From Pseudomonas azadiae (GTDB lineage Bacteria; Pseudomonadota; Gammaproteobacteria; Pseudomonadales; Pseudomonadaceae), in the NCBI RefSeq assembly GCF_019145355.1, contig NZ_JAHSTY010000001.1:2046001-2110000 (forward strand): a stretch of DNA of 64,000 nucleotides, read 5' to 3'. Each line of letters begins with the position of its first letter. The stretch's first letter is position 1. The notes beneath the pieces are model-generated. The model searched no databases and was not told the origin of the DNA. It saw only the letters and a list, made by a program, of their open reading frames with translations. A program made the position numbers and the translations under genes. Below, piece by piece: positions 4,275 to 14,212 of the stretch.

Positions 4275-4721
4275 TCAGCGGATATTGAGTAGCGTCTTGA
4301 GGGTGTTGCGCGGTGGGTTGATCGAGGCGTTACTGTATTCGAACCAGCCTTGCGCCTGCACATTCAGCTCATACACGTAGATGTAACCCACCAACGTGCC
4401 CGACCCGGTGCAGGCCTGGCTGATGTTGCCGACCTGGCACACAGCGGTCCGCTGGCCATTGAGCACCGCACCATTAAAGAGGCCGACCGGGTTATTGCCC
4501 AGGCCGACTTCCATCACCGAGACCTGGGTGGCTCCGCGGTGCGTGCACATCTGCGTGGTGTTCACGCGCTCAGGGATGGTTTCGGTGCAAGCCGCCGACT
4601 CGACCTTGAACACGCGCACCTCGCTCAAGGGCGGTGCAGTGGCGCCCCACGCCGGTGCTGCGCCGAGCCACAGGCTCAGACAAGGGATCAGGGCTAGACT
4701 CCATGGGTTGGTTTTTTTCAT
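4275..4721 (-). CDS. Small secreted protein, probably DUF4879 (YolA-like)
   Basis: The 148-residue product has a clear Sec signal (basic MKKTNPW, a hydrophobic stretch, cleavage near AWGA around residue 27) and is probably exported. Four or more cysteines in the mature part (ACTET, MCTHRG, VCQVG, ACTGSG) suggest disulfides. The C-terminal pattern WFEYSNASI then NTLKTLLNIR and the overall length resemble the DUF4879/YolA family of small secreted proteins; this is recognition from memory. It sits 97 bp upstream of the molybdenum hydroxylase operon on the same strand but is probably a separate unit. Function unknown. Confidence 0.7.
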   Translation of the reverse strand: MKKTNPWSLALIPCLSLWLGAAPAWGATAPPLSEVRVFKVESAACTETIPERVNTTQMCTHRGATQVSVMEVGLGNNPVGLFNGAVLNGQRTAVCQVGNISQACTGSGTLVGYIYVYELNVQAQGWFEYSNASINPPRNTLKTLLNIR

Positions 4722-7386: not shown

Positions 7387-7851
7387 TCATGTATCCGGTG
7401 AATCGCCGGGCTCCACGACTTCCTTGCGGGGCCGACCACCCTTCTTGCCATTGGCCCGGGCGGCCGCCGATTTGGCGGCGCTGCGTTTGCGACCGTTGCG
7501 GGAGGCCACCAGGCTTGTCGCGAGGTCCATCAGCGGCTGGCTTGTCGCGATCAGGCCCGTGATCGAAACGTCCAGATCCTTGGCCTCGCAGCAGAGCGCC
7601 TTGCCGCCGAAACCTACTTCCAACTGCTGGAAGTCCTGCGGGGAAAACCCCTCGAACTCCGGCAGGCCGGCCACCGGCAACATGACGCGGCTGCCGTCGC
7701 TGAAGCCAATGGAGATGCAGTCGTCTTGATAGCGCACGTTGCTGGCGTTGGCATACAGACGCTTGAGCTTGCGCCCACGGGCTATTGCCTTTTCGACATC
7801 AGCGTCGGTGAGGGGCACATAGGGTGTGACTTTGGCTTTTACGATTTTCAT
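7387..7851 (-). CDS. DUF2442 domain protein with basic C-terminal tail
   Basis: The 154-residue protein has a DUF2442-type core (roughly residues 35-85, with YANASNVRYQDDCISIGFSDG then LPVAGLPEF) and a Lys/Arg/Ala-rich C-terminal helix (NGRKRSAAKSAAARANGKKG, then GRPRKE) that looks nucleic-acid binding. It is translationally coupled to the upstream DUF4160 gene by an ATGA overlap. DUF4160/DUF2442 pairs are common small two-gene units in bacteria and are often suspected toxin-antitoxin modules; the arrangement and the basic tail fit that, but activity is not shown by sequence. The REP pair begins 6 bp beyond its stop. Confidence 0.75.
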   Translation of the reverse strand: MKIVKAKVTPYVPLTDADVEKAIARGRKLKRLYANASNVRYQDDCISIGFSDGSRVMLPVAGLPEFEGFSPQDFQQLEVGFGGKALCCEAKDLDVSITGLIATSQPLMDLATSLVASRNGRKRSAAKSAAARANGKKGGRPRKEVVEPGDSPDT

Positions 7852-8336
7852 AAATTAATTCCCACGTTATCTGGCGCTCTTATCAGACTCAAAATTGTCC
7901 GTTGCTCTACGACGTCGTGCCGGGCGCTTGCAATGACATAAACACCGCGTCGAATGACTAATCCTGGAACCAACTCACCAGCCTCCCAATCCCAGGAATG
8001 ATTCTCCAGGCAAACTGTTTGCAGGTTTTCCCACCAGATCCTGCGTGCCCGCACCAGGTAGTGCCGCTGCATGATGACCTCGCGTATTTCCTTCAGGACC
8101 GCCGTGGGCGGCCCGCTGCGTTCAGGGTTTACATCCCACAACTCCACGTCCCCATTCAGAAAGCTGAAGCGAAAACGCGCATCCCAGACCCGTCCTCTGA
8201 CATGTACGTGGGGAGGGCAATGCTCATCCCGAAGAAATACCGAAATCACATAGCCTCTGTAAGCACCTACTTTCATACTAACCCATCCGTTAGGTTTTAT
8301 TCCGTCAGGTAACAATTTTTCCGTGCCACCCGACAA
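7848..8336 (-). CDS. DUF4160 domain protein, partner of the DUF2442 gene
   Basis: The N-terminal half carries the DUF4160 signature YVISVFLRDEHCPPHVHVRG (metal-binding-like His residues) followed by LNGDVELWDVNP. About 60 further residues (from ENLQTVCLENHSWDWEAGEL on) extend beyond a usual short DUF4160 protein. The best start is a TTG at 8336 preceded by AAAAAGGAGCCGG, an excellent ribosome binding site; an internal ATG at 8276 (MKVGAY) is the alternative and would give 142 residues. Gene order DUF4160 then DUF2442 with a 4-bp overlap indicates one transcript. Function unknown. Confidence 0.75.
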   Translation of the reverse strand: MSGGTEKLLPDGIKPNGWVSMKVGAYRGYVISVFLRDEHCPPHVHVRGRVWDARFRFSFLNGDVELWDVNPERSGPPTAVLKEIREVIMQRHYLVRARRIWWENLQTVCLENHSWDWEAGELVPGLVIRRGVYVIASARHDVVEQRTILSLIRAPDNVGINL

Positions 8337-8507: not shown

Positions 8508-8522
8508 GTTCGATAATCGAAC
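8508..8522 (+). promoter_or_regulatory. PcaR-type box upstream of the dehydroquinase gene
   Basis: GTTCGATAATCGAAC is a perfect 15-bp palindrome 82 bp before the aroQ-type start. It differs at one base from GTTCGATAATCGCAC, which I recall as the PcaR (IclR-family, beta-ketoadipate-responsive) site of P. putida pca promoters. A close copy lies at 12755-12769 in the quiC/MFS promoter region. Confidence 0.7.
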
Positions 8523-8549
8523 ATATCCGCCCACATCAATTGACCAAAT

Positions 8550-8569
8550 TAACCAACCAGTACATTTTA
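8550..8569 (+). promoter_or_regulatory. Second shared promoter element (TAACC-N5-GTACATTTTA)
   Basis: TAACC, five variable bases, then GTACATTTTA, located 27 bp after the PcaR-type box and 35 bp before the gene start. The same two blocks with the same spacing occur upstream of quiC (12728-12747, minus strand). It may be the operator of the TetR protein in the cluster or a shared core promoter. A consensus DnaA box (TTATCCACA, 8567-8575) overlaps its end. Confidence 0.5.
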
Positions 8570-8604
8570 TCCACACAACTGACAAGAACTGTGGAGACCC
8601 CCTT

Positions 8605-9054
8605 ATGCCGCCCCTCGTGCTGGTGCTCAACGGCCCCAACCTGAACCTGCTCGGCACCCGCGAGCCGGCTACCTATGGCCATGAAACCCTGGCCGATGTC
8701 GCTGCCCTGTGTGGCCGCAGCGCCGAACAACTCGGGCTGAACATCGAATTCCGCCAGACCAACCACGAAGGCGAATTGCTTGACTGGATCCACGGCGCCC
8801 GCGCTCGCTGCGCCGGCATCGTGATCAACCCGGCAGCCTGGACCCACACCTCGGTGGCCATTCGCGACGCGCTGGTCGCCAGTGAAGTGCCGGTGATCGA
8901 GGTGCATCTGTCCAACGTGCATGCCCGTGAAGCGTTCCGTCATCACTCGTTCGTATCGCCCATTGCCACAGCGGTATTGGCCGGGTTCGGCAGCCAGGGC
9001 TACCACTTGGCCCTGGAACATTTCAGCCATCTGCTCAAAGGGTCGGCACAATGA
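8605..9054 (+). CDS. aroQ: Type II 3-dehydroquinate dehydratase (catabolic copy)
   Basis: The 149-residue protein is a class II dehydroquinase interconverting 3-dehydroquinate and 3-dehydroshikimate. It has the flexible lid [14 protein letters not shown] with Tyr24 and the active-site loop [19 protein letters not shown]. It overlaps the following dehydrogenase gene (ATGA) and shares a regulatory box with quiC, so it is most likely the catabolic paralogue (P. aeruginosa aroQ2-like) rather than the biosynthetic copy, which in Pseudomonas normally sits next to accB. The expected step is quinate-derived dehydroquinate to dehydroshikimate, feeding QuiC. Confidence 0.93.
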
Positions 9055-9899
9055 AACCGCGCATCCTCGCCGGTCTGATCGGCGCCGGCATCCAGGCCTC
9101 TCGCACGCCCGCTTTGCATGAACAGGAAGGTGACGCCCAAGGCCTGCGCTACCTGTACCGTTTGATCGACCTTGAGCCGCTGCATCTGGACATCAACGCC
9201 CTGCCCGACCTGCTGCACGCCGCCGAGTTGATGCAGTTCACCGGGCTGAACATCACTTACCCCTGCAAACAGGCAATTCTGCCGCTGCTTGATAACTTGT
9301 CCGACGAGGCCCGCGGCATAGGCGCGGTCAACACGGTGGTGTTCAAGGACGGCAAACGCATCGGCCACAACACCGATTGCCTCGGGTTCGCCGAAGGGTT
9401 CCGACGCAATTTGAATGACGTGGCCCGTCAACGCGTGGTGCAGATGGGCGCTGGCGGGGCTGGCGCGGCGGTGGCGCATGCGTTGCTGGCAGAAGGCGTG
9501 GAGCACTTGAGTATTTTCGATGTGGACGTCACACGCGCCCGCGACCTTGTGGATAACCTGGCGCAGCATTTCGGCACCGGTCGCGCCCAGGTGGGCAGCC
9601 ACTTGGAAAACGCGATGGCCGAGGCGGACGGCGTGGTCAACACCACGCCGATGGGCATGGCCAAGCTGCCCGGAACGCCGGTTCCCGCGGCCCTGTTGCG
9701 GGCAGAGCTATGGGTGGCGGAAATCGTGTATTTCCCTTTGGAAACCGAACTGCTGCGCGACGCCCGCGCCTTGGGTTGCCGCACGCTGGATGGCGGCAAC
9801 ATGGCGGTGTTTCAGGCGGTGAAGGCGTTCGAGTTATTCAGTGGGCAGGCAGCGGATGCGCAACGCATGCTGGCGCACTTCCAGAGCCTGAATACCTGA
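9051..9899 (+). CDS. Quinate/shikimate dehydrogenase, NAD-type
   Basis: The 282-residue AroE-superfamily protein oxidises quinate and/or shikimate. Substrate-site residues are Ser17 and Thr19 (ASRTP), and the catalytic pair is Lys73 (TYPCK) and Asp109 (HNTD). The Rossmann loop GAGGAG is at 133-138, and the second strand ends in FDVD with Asp157, where NADP-dependent AroE enzymes have a basic NRT motif. That acidic residue indicates NAD and an oxidative, catabolic role. The start overlaps the end of the dehydroquinase gene. This fits the Corynebacterium QSDH-like class better than biosynthetic AroE or YdiB. Confidence 0.88.
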
Positions 9900-9919
9900 C
9901 TGCCAAAACCGGATTAAAC

Positions 9920-10010
9920 CTGTGGGAGCTGGCTTGCCTGCGATAGCGGTTTGCCAGGCGAAGGTGTAGCTCTGACACACCGCTATCGCGGGCAAGCCCG
10001 GCTCCCACAT
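9920..10010. repeat. REP pair (REPIN)
   Basis: Left arm TGTGGGAGCTGGCTTGCCTG; right arm ATCGCGGGCAAGCCCGGCTCCCACA carries a one-base insertion and two substitutions, a decayed arm. It lies between the convergent ends of the dehydrogenase and the TetR gene. Confidence 0.88.
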
Positions 10011-10043
10011 GGATTGTATTCCAGCCTGGAGCATTGCGTGTAG

Positions 10044-10685
10044 TCAGGCCTGCAAGTAGCGCATCACCGAGTCGCATATCATCTCGCGGTGCCGCTGCTT
10101 GACCGCCTCATCCGACAGCTCGATCTGAAAGATCTCACTGAACGTATGGCGGTTGGACACGCGGTAAAAGCTGAATGAGTTGATCAGCAGGTGCACGTCC
10201 AGCGGCTCCAGCCCATCCCTGAATAGGCCCATCTGCGCCCCACGGCGCAACGTTGCGCCCAGCGCTTCGAGGATGTTGCTGTTCATCGCCTTGATCGCAT
10301 CCGAGCGCTTCACGAATTCGGCGTTGTGGATATTCTCGATGCTGACGATGCGCACGAAATCCACGTTCTGGTCGTGGTGATCGAAGGTGAATTCCACCAG
10401 CCGACGGATCGCTTCGCGCGGTTCCAGGGCGGTGAGGTTCATGCGGGTCTCTGTGTTGCGGATGTCGCCGTAGAGCTTCTCGAGCACCTCGACGTACAAC
10501 TGCTCCTTACTGCCAAAGTAGTAGTAGATCATGCGCTTGGAGGTGTGGATGCGCTCGGCGATGGCGTCCACGCGAGCACCGGCGAGGCCCTGTTGGACAA
10601 ACTCGACAATGGCTTCCTGGAGTATGTTCTCGCGGGTCTTTTCCGGATTGTTCTTACGACTCTTGCGGGTTGCCTCGGAGGTCAT
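10044..10685 (-). CDS. TetR family regulator of the quinate/shikimate cluster
   Basis: The 213-residue protein has an N-terminal TetR helix-turn-helix (ILQEAIVEFVQQGLAGARVD, then ERIHTSKRMIYYYFGSKEQL) and a helical ligand-binding C-terminal half. I prefer the ATG at 10685 (MTSEATRKSRKN) to one 54 bp upstream because it gives the usual short basic lead before the HTH. It is transcribed in the same direction as and just downstream of quiC, and lies between the two catabolic promoters, so regulating this cluster is the natural inference. A palindrome ACGAACCGGTTAGT in the quiC/MFS intergenic region (12736-12749) would suit a TetR operator. The ligand is unknown. Confidence 0.88.
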   Translation of the reverse strand: MTSEATRKSRKNNPEKTRENILQEAIVEFVQQGLAGARVDAIAERIHTSKRMIYYYFGSKEQLYVEVLEKLYGDIRNTETRMNLTALEPREAIRRLVEFTFDHHDQNVDFVRIVSIENIHNAEFVKRSDAIKAMNSNILEALGATLRRGAQMGLFRDGLEPLDVHLLINSFSFYRVSNRHTFSEIFQIELSDEAVKQRHREMICDSVMRYLQA

Positions 10686-10763
10686 GGTGCGCTCACGGCC
10701 AGTGCTATGCAGGCCATGATTATGGGCCGCGATGCACAACGAAAGAAAGCACCCCGCCCGCCG

Positions 10764-12665
10764 TTATAACCGCGCCTGGCGCACCGCACCGCTGCGCGAT
10801 TTGGCCATCGCCGCCAGGCGCACCGCCACGTTGGCCGCGCCGTAGCCGGCATAGCCGTTCTTGCGCTGGAGGATCTCGAAGAAAAATCGCCCCTCGAAGG
10901 GTTCGGTGTACACGTGAAACAATTCACCGCCCTGCGCGTCGCGGTCGTACAACACGTTGTAGTAGGCCAGCTCGCTGAGGAACTCGTCGTCAAAATCGAA
11001 GCGCGCCGCCAGGTCGTCGTAATAGTTGAGCGGAATATCCAGCAGCGGCACCCCGGCCTCTTTGGCGCGGCGTACCTCGGCGAAAATATCCGCGCAGTCG
11101 AAGGCAATGTGGTGCACGCCCGAGCCGCGATAGCTCGACAGCGCGTGGGAAATGGCCGTGTTGCGGTTCTCGGAGATATTCAGCGGCAGGCGAATCGAGC
11201 TGCAACGGCTGCGCAGTGCACGGCTTTTTACCAGGCCATAAGGGTCGGGCAACACCACTTCATCATCGGCCTCGAAGTCCAGCAGGCTCTTGTAGAACAG
11301 CACCCAACTGTCGAGGCTGTCGGCCGGCAGCGCCATGGCCATGTGATCGATGCGCAGCAAGCCACCGCTGGACGACGATGGCGGTTGCAGGTTGAAATCC
11401 GTGTCGTACAGGCCGCCTTCGCTCGGGTCCACCAGGTAAATCAGGCTACCGTCCGGCGCGCGCACCGCTGCCAGTTCCAGCTCATTGGGGCCGACCAGGC
11501 CGCGATACGGCTGGCCCTTGTAGGCCACCGCCCGCTCCAGGGCCTTGGCGCTGTCCTTGACCCGCATCGCAGTGGCGCATAACGACGGCCCGTGGGCTTC
11601 GAAAAAGTTGTGCGCGAAGGAATAGGGCTCGCAGTTGAGGATCAGGTTGATATCGCCCTGGCACAGCAGGCTTACGCTCTTGGAGCGATGCTGCCCGGCC
11701 TTGACGAAGCCCAGGCGCTCCAGCCAGTGCGTGAGTTTGGCGCCGAGGCTTTCATCGACGGCGAACTCGAGGAACTCAATGCCGTCGTACTCGCTGGCGG
11801 CTGGGGTATCGAACAGAATCTCGACCGGTTGCGCGGGGGCCTCCTGTTGCAGACGCTCGCGGGTCTTCTCTTCCAGGTAGAGCAGGGAGCGCAAGCCATC
11901 CGCCGCGTTCGCCCGGGTGGGCGCGGCACGAAAGCCGTCGTTGAAAATCTCCAGGGACAGTGGCCCGGTGTAACCGCTCTTGATGATCGGCGCGAGGAAC
12001 CCGGCCAGGTCGAATTCGCCCTGGCCGGGAAAACAGCGAAAATGCCGACTCCACTCCAACACGTCCATGGCCAGGATTGGCGCGTCGGCCATTTGTACAA
12101 AAAAGATCTTGTCGCCGGGGATCTGCGCAATGGCGCTCGGGTCGCCCTTTAGGGACAAGGTATGAAAGCTGTCCAACAGCACACCAAGGGCCGGATGATC
12201 GACCTGGCGCACCAGGTTCCACACCTGTTGCCAGGTGTTCACATGCTTGCCCCAGGCCAAGGCTTCATAGCCAATGCGCAGGCCACGGCGGCCGGCGTGT
12301 TCGGCGAGCAGGCCCAGGTCATCCAGCAAAATGTGCTCGTCGCCGACGCAATCGGCCGACGCGTTGCTGCACACCAGCACCAGGTCGGTGCCCAGTTCCT
12401 GCATCAAATCGAATTTGCGCTCGGCACGCTCAAGGTTGCGCGCCAAGCGGTCGCGGCGGCATCCTTCGAAGTCGCGAAACGGCTGGAACAAGGTGATGGC
12501 GATGCCCAGGTCGGTGCACATCTGCCTGACTTCGCGCGGGCTGCCGTCGTAATACAACAAATCGTTCTCGAAGATTTCAACCCCGTCAAACCCGGCGGCG
12601 GCAATGGCTTCGAGCTTTTCCGGCAGGGTGCCGCTCAAGGAAACGGTGGCAATGGAACGTTGCAT
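10764..12665 (-). CDS. quiC: 3-Dehydroshikimate dehydratase QuiC1 (TIM barrel + HPPD-like fusion)
   Basis: The 633-residue protein converts 3-dehydroshikimate to protocatechuate, the entry to the beta-ketoadipate pathway. The N-terminal ~280 residues form a xylose-isomerase-like TIM barrel (starts MQRSIATVSLSGTLPEKLEA; FDGVEIFENDLLYYDG, GYEALAWGKHVNTW, LLDSFHTL supply metal-ligand Glu/Asp/His positions). The C-terminal half has two VOC modules like 4-hydroxyphenylpyruvate dioxygenase (IDHMAMALPADSLDSWVLFY; GVHHIAFDCADI; GRFFFEILQR). This is the two-domain architecture of Pseudomonas QuiC1. It is divergent from the MFS gene, with the shared regulatory elements between them. Confidence 0.92.
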   Translation of the reverse strand: MQRSIATVSLSGTLPEKLEAIAAAGFDGVEIFENDLLYYDGSPREVRQMCTDLGIAITLFQPFRDFEGCRRDRLARNLERAERKFDLMQELGTDLVLVCSNASADCVGDEHILLDDLGLLAEHAGRRGLRIGYEALAWGKHVNTWQQVWNLVRQVDHPALGVLLDSFHTLSLKGDPSAIAQIPGDKIFFVQMADAPILAMDVLEWSRHFRCFPGQGEFDLAGFLAPIIKSGYTGPLSLEIFNDGFRAAPTRANAADGLRSLLYLEEKTRERLQQEAPAQPVEILFDTPAASEYDGIEFLEFAVDESLGAKLTHWLERLGFVKAGQHRSKSVSLLCQGDINLILNCEPYSFAHNFFEAHGPSLCATAMRVKDSAKALERAVAYKGQPYRGLVGPNELELAAVRAPDGSLIYLVDPSEGGLYDTDFNLQPPSSSSGGLLRIDHMAMALPADSLDSWVLFYKSLLDFEADDEVVLPDPYGLVKSRALRSRCSSIRLPLNISENRNTAISHALSSYRGSGVHHIAFDCADIFAEVRRAKEAGVPLLDIPLNYYDDLAARFDFDDEFLSELAYYNVLYDRDAQGGELFHVYTEPFEGRFFFEILQRKNGYAGYGAANVAVRLAAMAKSRSGAVRQARL

Positions 12666-12727
12666 GGGCGACTCCCGGCAATTGTTGTTTGCAGCAAATT
12701 ATTCGCCCCCAGCCTGCACGCAGCAAT

Positions 12728-12747
12728 TAAAATGTACGAACCGGTTA
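12728..12747 (-). promoter_or_regulatory. Shared promoter element upstream of quiC, with TetR-like palindrome
   Basis: Read on the minus strand this is TAACC-GGTTC-GTACATTTTA, matching 8550-8569 outside the five-base spacer. The overlapping ACGAACCGGTTAGT (12736-12749) is palindromic at 12 of 14 positions, typical of a TetR operator. Confidence 0.5.
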
Positions 12748-12754
12748 GTTTTCG

Positions 12755-12769
12755 GTGCGATTATCGAAC
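12755..12769 (-). promoter_or_regulatory. PcaR-type box in the quiC/MFS intergenic region
   Basis: The minus strand reads GTTCGATAATCGCAC, identical to the 15-bp P. putida PcaR site as I remember it. It is 90 bp upstream of quiC and 109 bp upstream of the MFS start, so it could serve either or both promoters. Confidence 0.72.
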
Positions 12770-12877
12770 ACTATGCCGATTTGGCGAATTGACGAGTTTT
12801 TAGCCACTGCGCACCATCGATCACGCAAAGAAGACCCAAAACACACCATAAAAATTTCAAAAAACGGGTACGACCTC

Positions 12878-14212
12878 ATGCCTCTGCAAAATTCCGTCCT
12901 GGCCGATCGCCCAGGCAACCCGCACGCCGGCATCGGCGACAAGATCCGCGGCGCCCTGGCCGTGGGTAAAACGCGCTGGGGCATGCTGGCCCTGGTGTTT
13001 TTCGCCACCACCCTGAACTACATCGACCGCGCCGCACTGGGCGTAATGCAACCGATCCTGGCCAAGGAAATGAGCTGGACGGCGATGGACTACGCCAACA
13101 TCAACTTCTGGTTCCAGGTCGGCTATGCCATCGGCTTTGTGCTGCAAGGCCGCTTGATCGACCGGGTGGGCGTCAAGCGCGTGTTCTTCTGCGCCGTATT
13201 GCTGTGGAGCCTGGCGACCGGCGCCCACGGCCTGGCCACGTCGGCGGTGGGCTTTATGGTGTGCCGTTTTATCCTCGGGCTGACCGAAGCGGCCAACTAC
13301 CCGGCGTGCGTTAAAACCACGCGCTTGTGGTTCCCGGCGGGCGAACGGGCGGTGGCCACCGGTATCTTCAACGCCGGCACCAACGTTGGCGCGATGATGA
13401 CGCCGATGCTGCTGCCCGTGATCCTGCAGGTGTGGGGCTGGCAAGCGGCGTTCCTGTGCATGGCATCGCTGGGCGCGATCTGGCTGGTGTTCTGGGGGTT
13501 GAAGTACTACAACCCGGAAGAGCATCCGACGGTTAAACAATCCGAATTGGATTACGTGCAGCAGCAAGTCGAGCCGGAACAACCTGGCGTACCTTTCAGC
13601 CGCATCCTGCGCATGCGCGGCACCTGGGCGTTCGCCATTGCCTACGCGCTGACCGCGCCGGTGTTCTGGTTCTACCTGTACTGGCTGCCGCCGTTCCTGA
13701 ACCAGCAATACAACCTGGGCATCAACGTGACCCAAATGGGCATCCCGCTGATCATCATCTACCTGACCGCGGACTTCGGCAGCGTGGGGGGCGGGATCCT
13801 GTCCTCGTTCCTGATCGGTCGCGGGATGAACTCGATCAAGGCGCGGCTGCTGTCGATGCTGCTGTTTGCCTGCTGCATCGTCGGCGTGATCATGGCCGCC
13901 GGCTCCAGCCAGCTGTGGGTCGCGGTGTTTGCCATCTCCCTGGCGATTGGCGCGCACCAGGCCTGGACCGCCAATATCTGGAGCCTGGTGATGGACTACA
14001 CGCCCAAGCACATGATGAGCACGGTGTTTGGTTTCGGCGGCATGTGCGCGGCCATCGGTGGCATGTTCATGACCCAGATCGTCGGCCACATCCTCACGGT
14101 GACCAACAACAATTACACCGTGTTGTTCACCCTGATCCCGGCGATGTACTTCGTTGCGCTGACCTGGATGTACTTCATGGCGCCGCGCAGGATTCCCGCC
14201 GTAGACGCCTGA
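12878..14212 (+). CDS. MFS transporter, probably for quinate/shikimate or protocatechuate (ACS family)
   Basis: The 444-residue inner-membrane protein has twelve predicted helices and the anion:cation symporter signature (TTLNYIDRAALGVMQPIL near residue 45; RFILGLTEAANYPACVK in helix 4-5; FNAGTNVGAMMTPML). I chose the ATG at 12878; the frame stays open upstream to 12755 but that would run through the PcaR-type box. Divergent from quiC with a shared regulatory region, it is the likely importer of the ring acid degraded by this cluster. Specificity within quinate, shikimate, dehydroshikimate and protocatechuate cannot be read from sequence. Confidence 0.85.
   Translation: MPLQNSVLADRPGNPHAGIGDKIRGALAVGKTRWGMLALVFFATTLNYIDRAALGVMQPILAKEMSWTAMDYANINFWFQVGYAIGFVLQGRLIDRVGVKRVFFCAVLLWSLATGAHGLATSAVGFMVCRFILGLTEAANYPACVKTTRLWFPAGERAVATGIFNAGTNVGAMMTPMLLPVILQVWGWQAAFLCMASLGAIWLVFWGLKYYNPEEHPTVKQSELDYVQQQVEPEQPGVPFSRILRMRGTWAFAIAYALTAPVFWFYLYWLPPFLNQQYNLGINVTQMGIPLIIIYLTADFGSVGGGILSSFLIGRGMNSIKARLLSMLLFACCIVGVIMAAGSSQLWVAVFAISLAIGAHQAWTANIWSLVMDYTPKHMMSTVFGFGGMCAAIGGMFMTQIVGHILTVTNNNYTVLFTLIPAMYFVALTWMYFMAPRRIPAVDA

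Follow-up and report, generated by a model that had tools for sequence, protein, structure and literature searches.

Predicted PcaR operators link the quinate/shikimate cluster of Pseudomonas azadiae to the beta-ketoadipate regulon

The closest described relative of the system considered here is the PcaR regulon of Pseudomonas putida. PcaR is an IclR-family regulator of the beta-ketoadipate pathway, and its regulon includes pcaK and pcaR itself. The genes pcaBDC, pcaF and pcaIJ are named as members in the available part of PMC12455658. The subject of this report is the quinate/shikimate cluster in a stretch of 64,000 nucleotides from Pseudomonas azadiae (contig NZ_JAHSTY010000001.1, positions 2,046,001 to 2,110,000), where two short boxes are predicted to be PcaR operators. 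The whole stretch is called the window below.

A second related system is found in Acinetobacter baylyi. There PcaU, of the same IclR subfamily, controls the quinate and protocatechuate genes together. The qui genes lie in a single cluster with the pca genes, and protocatechuate acts as the inducer. A common control of both gene sets is already known for PcaU; the quinate genes of Pseudomonas would be a new member of the PcaR regulon. The motif of PcaU is similar to the boxes described here, going by a table in PMC8222616.

Another system to be compared is the qsu cluster of Corynebacterium glutamicum. Its regulator QsuR is of the LysR type and answers chorismate, and we know of no PcaR box there. 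The likeness lies in the genes: it is a quinate/shikimate cluster with a two-domain 3-dehydroshikimate dehydratase, and in the available part of PMC7442255 this enzyme, QsuB, is related to QuiC1. Among the IclR-regulated families, the part of PMC8222616 at hand includes quinate/shikimate metabolism and leaves the regulator unnamed. No statement of PcaR control of Pseudomonas quinate genes was found in the literature searched; the supplementary regulon tables of PMC8222616 may contain one.

The two boxes of P. azadiae are as follows, with positions counted from the first letter of the window.

8508..8522, plus strand: box A, GTTCGATAATCGAAC, a predicted PcaR operator that precedes the aroQ operon; an exact match, aligned in 24 near relatives.
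12755..12769, minus strand: box B, GTTCGATAATCGCAC, a predicted PcaR operator in the region that separates quiC from the divergently transcribed MFS (major facilitator superfamily) gene; mean information 1.75 bits.

Both were proposed in an earlier note made from the sequence of the window. The two 15-mers are present at these coordinates and strands, and the genes around them are those that were claimed: a dehydroquinase and a dehydrogenase gene follow box A, and quiC and the MFS gene flank box B. Box B is identical to the PcaR operator that PMC12455658 (seen in part) prints for P. putida, and box A is one base off. The resemblance to the P. putida regulon therefore includes an identical 15-bp operator, along with a near-identical DNA-binding region of PcaR and a location of the sites in promoter regions. 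The difference lies in the targets, which here are the upper quinate genes at a separate locus. It is very likely, judging from the sequence, that PcaR controls the quinate promoters through both boxes.

The evidence begins with the rarity of the motif. Genome-wide counts cover all 6,106,669 bases on 3 contigs. Exact matches to GTTCGATAATCGMAC are limited to box A and box B, where about 0.009 would be expected from base composition. This is an excess of about 200 times, and both matches lie in the quinate cluster. The window holds no further match, as the earlier note had said; a search with up to three mismatches gives four rows, which are the two near-palindromic sites read on both strands. 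Elsewhere in the genome there are two sites with one mismatch, one upstream of a CoA-transferase pair described below and one at C2:84141. The latter, at the junction of two histidine-type ABC permease reading frames, was set aside. There is also a weak match at C2:2218318, where the surrounding locus has a peptidyl-prolyl isomerase-like frame and a weak LysR-like frame. The quiC-MFS intergenic region had no match in the plasmid collection searched.

The pcaR gene was expected outside the window, and it is found on another contig (C2:134424-135167). Unlike the arrangement in A. baylyi, the qui cluster and pcaR are thus on different contigs and are joined only by the predicted operators. The product is the sole protein of the genome over the cut-off of TIGR02431, the model for PcaR, PcaU and PobR (351 bits against 284.75; the next best reaches 91). 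Compared with P. putida PcaR (8eju) it scores 518 bits. Residues 35-107, which include the helix-turn-helix domain, show one V/I difference from 8eju in the printed alignment.

The gene order after pcaR is pcaK, the CoA-transferase pair, pcaF and pcaHG. A comparison of motif hits with pca promoters, which had been suggested as a check, gives related boxes upstream of pcaR and of the CoA-transferase pair. GTTCGGTAATCGAAC, upstream of the pair (between pcaK and pcaF), has one mismatch to GTTCGATAATCGMAC, and GCCCGATAATCGCAC, upstream of pcaR, has two; both are weaker matches than the quinate boxes. Each of these regions contains two near-palindromes whose CGATWATCG-type cores start 19 bp apart (L021 10205-10238, 12723-12756). 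The quinate promoters, in contrast, have a single box and a second element, M. It is probable that these are two operator designs for one regulator. The CoA-transferase pair (L021 12844-14480) is taken for pcaIJ because of its CoA_trans domains and its place among the genes. It may be of another, CatIJ-like type, since it is far below the model cut-offs (30 bits against 128.5 for pcaI, 51 against 243.55 for pcaJ).

Further evidence is provided by conservation. The Pseudomonas quiC set consists of the window, the best 80 of 571 confirmed loci, which bias it toward near relatives, and 60 more diverse loci, hand-picked for spread from the 159 of 199 genus genomes with QuiC over the cut-off. One locus (L066) was excluded because its contig stops 92 bp upstream of quiC. 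The 140 usable loci represent 137 distinct promoter stretches, with identical pairs L053/L166, L108/L176 and L075/L077. Box B is present within two mismatches in all 140 (83 exact, 55 with one mismatch, 2 with two); in L081 it lies outside the 320-bp upstream range and was found with a 330-bp range. The mean information of 1.75 bits for the box and 1.64 for AAACTAAC-N6-GTACA compares with 0.33 and 0.43 in the outer flanks. In the sample from other genera, 60 of 63 rows were examined, made up of 55 loci outside the genus (nine genera of the family) and 5 from the genus itself. Box B occurs within two mismatches in 49 of the 55.

The motif is also specific in its placement. Exact GTNCGATWATCGNAC is found in 171 of the 199 genus genomes, and a reversed control in 13. 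Placement was determined for 75 exact sites listed in 42 genomes, the total number of sites being larger. The quiC promoter accounts for 19 of these, the aroQ side for 6, the pcaR promoter for 15 and the 3 kb 3' of pcaR for 20; 12 are unassigned and 3 not placeable. In all, quiC, aroQ, pcaR and the stretch just 3' of pcaR take up 60 of the 75 listed sites. By this count the 15-mer does not occur widely at unrelated places, which the earlier note had named as a refuting outcome.

Box and regulator tend to occur together. Among the 187 genus genomes with pcaR over the cut-off, 170 have an exact box and 17 do not. Twelve of the 199 genomes have no pcaR at E 1e-80, and one of these, G034, has the box together with pcaR in pieces. 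A second search of the remaining 11, at E 0.001, found no pcaR over the cut-off (best 164 bits), and none of them has an exact box. For the co-occurrence of box and pcaR, Fisher p is 6e-10. In G034, a 95%-complete single-contig genome (loci L181 and L212), the tetR gene of the quiC cluster is also split between frames. Both broken genes are perhaps assembly errors.

The signal of the regulator can be approached through proteome data. In one published proteome of P. putida KT2440, levels of quinate dehydrogenase and QuiC were 1.3- to 2.0-fold higher with benzoate (PMC7792162, in the part available). This fits PcaR because benzoate leads to beta-ketoadipate via catechol and bypasses both quinate and protocatechuate, though the effect is a small, indirect one. 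A downstream metabolite, with beta-ketoadipate as inducer, would serve as the signal. It may not be the sole one, since PcaR answers several carboxylic acids in E. coli, according to the available text of PMC12455658.

The second element common to both quinate promoters, TAAC-N6-GTACATTTT, is called M. Together with a TetR gene at 10044-10685, it is an addition to what the earlier note described. The parts of the promoters are as follows.

8540..8545, plus strand: TTGACC, which may be the -35 of the aroQ promoter; the centre of box A lies 25 bp upstream.
8550..8569, plus strand: element M of aroQ, TAACCAACCAGTACATTTTA, a candidate TetR operator overlapping the candidate -10.
12728..12747, minus strand: element M of quiC, TAACCGGTTCGTACATTTTA, its start 22 bp downstream of that of box B.
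12789..12794, plus strand: TTGACG, which may be the -35 of the MFS promoter; the centre of box B is 27 bp away.

The distances between box and M are constrained. At quiC, box B and M start 22 bp apart in 129 of the 140 loci and 21 bp apart in the other 11. In the family loci with a box, TAAC follows 18 to 23 bp after it in 52 of 54, with 49 of these at 21-22. At aroQ, 85 of 99 promoters (97 distinct) have M and a box within two mismatches. Their spacings fall into three classes, 42-44 bp (26 loci), 52-54 bp (51) and 64-65 bp (8), with none between. Including the 21-22 bp at quiC, the spacings are near-multiples of 10.7 bp, so that the steps are about one helical turn.

The candidate -35 elements are similarly placed. 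TTGACC is well conserved in the 24-row alignment of near relatives, from which L053 departs. Of the 110 loci with this MFS gene, 109 have a TTGAC on its side at 26-27 bp from the centre of the box; five of these have an extra TTGAC at 18-19 bp, and L193 is without any. The range of distances from box to start codon is 103-321 bp for quiC and about 107-495 bp for the MFS gene in those 110 loci. If GTACATTTT holds the -10, the box centres would be at about -40 at quiC and about -60, -71 and -82 at aroQ. Such positions would resemble the class II and class I activator positions of CRP. IclR sites follow the DNA turn, according to the available part of PMC8222616. Many loci among L059-L107, including P. 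jessenii and P. koreensis, have variants such as GTCCGATCACCGCAC in place of box A in their aroQ promoters, at a distance of 53 bp from M; on their sequence these may be a weaker-looking yet maintained site.

Several observations weigh against PcaR control through these promoters. The locus counts overstate independence because the loci are related, and the helical spacing rests on few independent shifts. Box B was not found in 6 of the 55 loci from other genera (one in g11, two in g13, two in g15, and the second quiC copy of g12). At aroQ, 8 of the 99 promoters have a three-mismatch box at 53 or 64 bp. Another 5 have no box within the 110 bp searched, with weaker candidates of 1-3 mismatches 144-166 bp away, and one is without M. 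A consensus scan finds no sigma-70 match at the aroQ promoter, and box A was scored as a small terminator-like hairpin on the minus strand. The count in the window is weak by itself, since 12 of 100 shuffled windows reach at least the same row count at up to three mismatches. Finally, the 11 genomes without pcaR are also without QuiC over the cut-off. The co-occurrence of box and pcaR is thus not independent evidence, and it cannot separate PcaR from loss of the pathway.

The role of M is evenly balanced on sequence grounds, with about an even chance that it is the operator of the adjacent TetR regulator, whose binding is predicted. Within one mismatch, TAACNNNNCNGTACATTTTA matches the aroQ and quiC copies only in the genome; a third place has two mismatches, and a reversed control gives one. 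The dyad TAACYRGTTA is present in many versions of M. At aroQ its region is flanked by TTGACC and TACATT, a place in which a bound repressor would block RNA polymerase. The dyad TAACYRGTT is exact in 59 of 127 loci that have tetR adjacent, compared with 2 of the 13 that do not; Fisher p is 0.04, and phylogeny confounds the comparison. Of those two, one is on a 3.9-kb contig and the other has tetR 1.15 kb away.

Alternatively, M may be only a core promoter (-35/-10) with no second regulator, which is quite possible though not the favoured explanation. M holds TACATT, matching TATAAT at 4 of 6 positions, downstream of TTGACC at aroQ. The dyad is frequently imperfect, being exact in only 59 of the 127 loci with an adjacent tetR. 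Moreover, 11 sampled loci without tetR in the stretch examined keep TAAC-N6-GTAC and have lost the dyad. In these 11 genomes, which we guess to be P. putida-like, the best TetR homologue (68-72% identical) is elsewhere and M was not found beside it, except for one two-mismatch match inside a tetR reading frame (L213). This counts against a simple TetR story for those 11 genomes. A core promoter accounts less well for the conservation: positions 17-25 and 32-36 from the box start are 96-100% identical in the 140 loci, beyond what a -10 needs. Nor does it explain that M occurs within one mismatch at just two places of the genome, both in the quinate cluster, or that the TetR gene directly follows quiC.

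For PcaR itself, activation is somewhat better than an even prospect, as far as promoter sequences can tell. The fixed spacings and the steps of one helical turn suggest it. It is favoured because GATAAT, a possible -10 within box B, is not kept in many relatives, and because the aroQ box shifts relative to M. The opposite model, in which PcaR represses, is unlikely but has some evidence behind it. In this model GATAAT in box B is the -10 of quiC, a dicarboxylate releases PcaR, and M is part of the transcribed leader. The consensus scan at quiC indeed prefers this element, as TCGCCA-N16-GATAAT. With the -10 inside box B, M would come after the start site and PcaR would be a repressor there. 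A PcaR-controlled promoter of P. putida was repressed in E. coli and relieved by succinate, and other promoter arrangements were activated (PMC12455658, available part). Likewise, the title of Guo and Houghton 1999, the portion of that work available, speaks of activation and repression through -35 and -10 elements.

Repression is harder to reconcile with the variation among relatives. Many of the sampled loci have GGTAAT or GATTAT in place of GATAAT. At aroQ the distance between box and M takes three values, which differ by about one helical turn, and TTGACC and M stay together in near relatives. The aroQ box is therefore placed outside the core promoter.

M might also hold a third half-site for PcaR, in the manner of the three-box sites known for PcaU and PobR. 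The M of quiC in the window has GTTCGTAC (with GTTCG) in the same direction as the first half-site, and three-box IclR sites are described in the part of PMC8222616 at hand. However, the TTCG of M is not kept: many loci have GTTAGTAC, GTTGGTAC or GGTAGTAC, and it is absent from M at the aroQ promoter of the window. At the pcaR and CoA-transferase upstream regions, moreover, the second box is a near-palindrome 19 bp away. Since TTCG is not kept, a half-site in M is judged improbable.

The two inputs can be combined into one model, with PcaR as activator and TetR as the reader of M. The boxes would be operators of PcaR, which with a dicarboxylate signal (beta-ketoadipate) would activate all three promoters of the quinate pathway. 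PcaR would act on the aroQ-dehydrogenase and MFS promoters from upstream, at about -60; at quiC it would sit at about -40 and overlap the -35 region. The local TetR repressor, bound to M at the aroQ and quiC core promoters, would respond to an intermediate of the pathway or to quinate itself. The genes would then be fully expressed only when a substrate is present and the lower pathway is running. Such double control would keep QuiC from draining 3-dehydroshikimate off aromatic amino-acid synthesis. That this holds across the family, with helically phased activation at three promoters by PcaR, the reader of the lower pathway's product end, a TetR repressor reading the substrate through an operator fixed 21-22 bp from the box at quiC, and AND logic protecting the 3-dehydroshikimate pool, is a tentative proposal, held with less than even confidence. 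The simpler statement, that the upper quinate pathway runs only while the lower pathway runs, is probably correct.

Another IclR-family protein, a PobR- or PcaU-like paralogue, might own the sites instead of PcaR, which is very improbable. Similar motifs are given for Acinetobacter PcaU and PobR (table in PMC8222616), and four other IclR-type proteins of the genome match TIGR02431 weakly. Their scores are at most 91 bits against the cut-off of 284.75, which a single protein passes. In addition, box B is the P. putida PcaR operator, and the same motif occurs upstream of pcaR. Lastly, the idea that the boxes are chance matches draws on the shuffled windows mentioned above and was rejected, with almost no probability left to it, by the exact-match counts, both of them in this cluster, and by conservation in relatives.

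If PcaR control is true, the Pseudomonas PcaR regulon takes in, besides the lower beta-ketoadipate pathway, an upper one whose starting compound is a common plant acid. The substrate of QuiC, 3-dehydroshikimate, is also required for aromatic amino-acid synthesis. A dependence of quiC on a lower-pathway product, and possibly on a TetR that senses the substrate, would account for the sparing of this compound. The fixed composite operator and the helically phased boxes make the question of activator or repressor directly testable. Knowledge of the quiC switch would also help the engineering of strains for aromatics, in which QuiC genes are knocked out (PMC6581684, available part).

The genes of the cluster are as follows.

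8605..9054, plus strand: aroQ-type 3-dehydroquinate dehydratase (type II), over the cut-offs of NCBIfam NF003806 and TIGR01088.
9051..9899, plus strand: relative of quinate/shikimate dehydrogenases (PRK12549 subfamily), NCBIfam NF009201, 467 bits against a cut-off of 235.
10044..10685, minus strand: TetR-family regulator, directly downstream of quiC on the same strand, with Pfam TetR_N and TetR_C_29.
10764..12665, minus strand: quiC, 3-dehydroshikimate dehydratase with an HPPD-like second domain, NF042435, 1293 bits against a cut-off of 1200, with AP_endonuc_2 and Glyoxalase_5.
12878..14212, plus strand: MFS transporter, Pfam MFS_1.

The MFS transporter probably takes up quinate or shikimate, a substrate suggested by its context. 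The position of tetR next to quiC is syntenic in most related loci. Among the best 80 of 571 loci, the named relatives nearest by QuiC (98% identity) belong to Pseudomonas, P. marginalis and P. canadensis being examples. Pfam scans of several mechanically chosen long frames (the longest, often antisense) gave no match.

The gap between the dehydrogenase gene and tetR contains a strong inverted repeat (9921-10009). Its 27-nt arms, 9931-9957 and 9972-9998, are 89% complementary, and we take it to be of the kind of the Pseudomonas REP elements. Upstream of the aroQ promoter, at 7387-8285, there are two overlapping minus-strand frames with a DUF2442 match and a borderline DUF4160 match. Further upstream, 4275-4721 encodes a small protein with a DUF4879 match.

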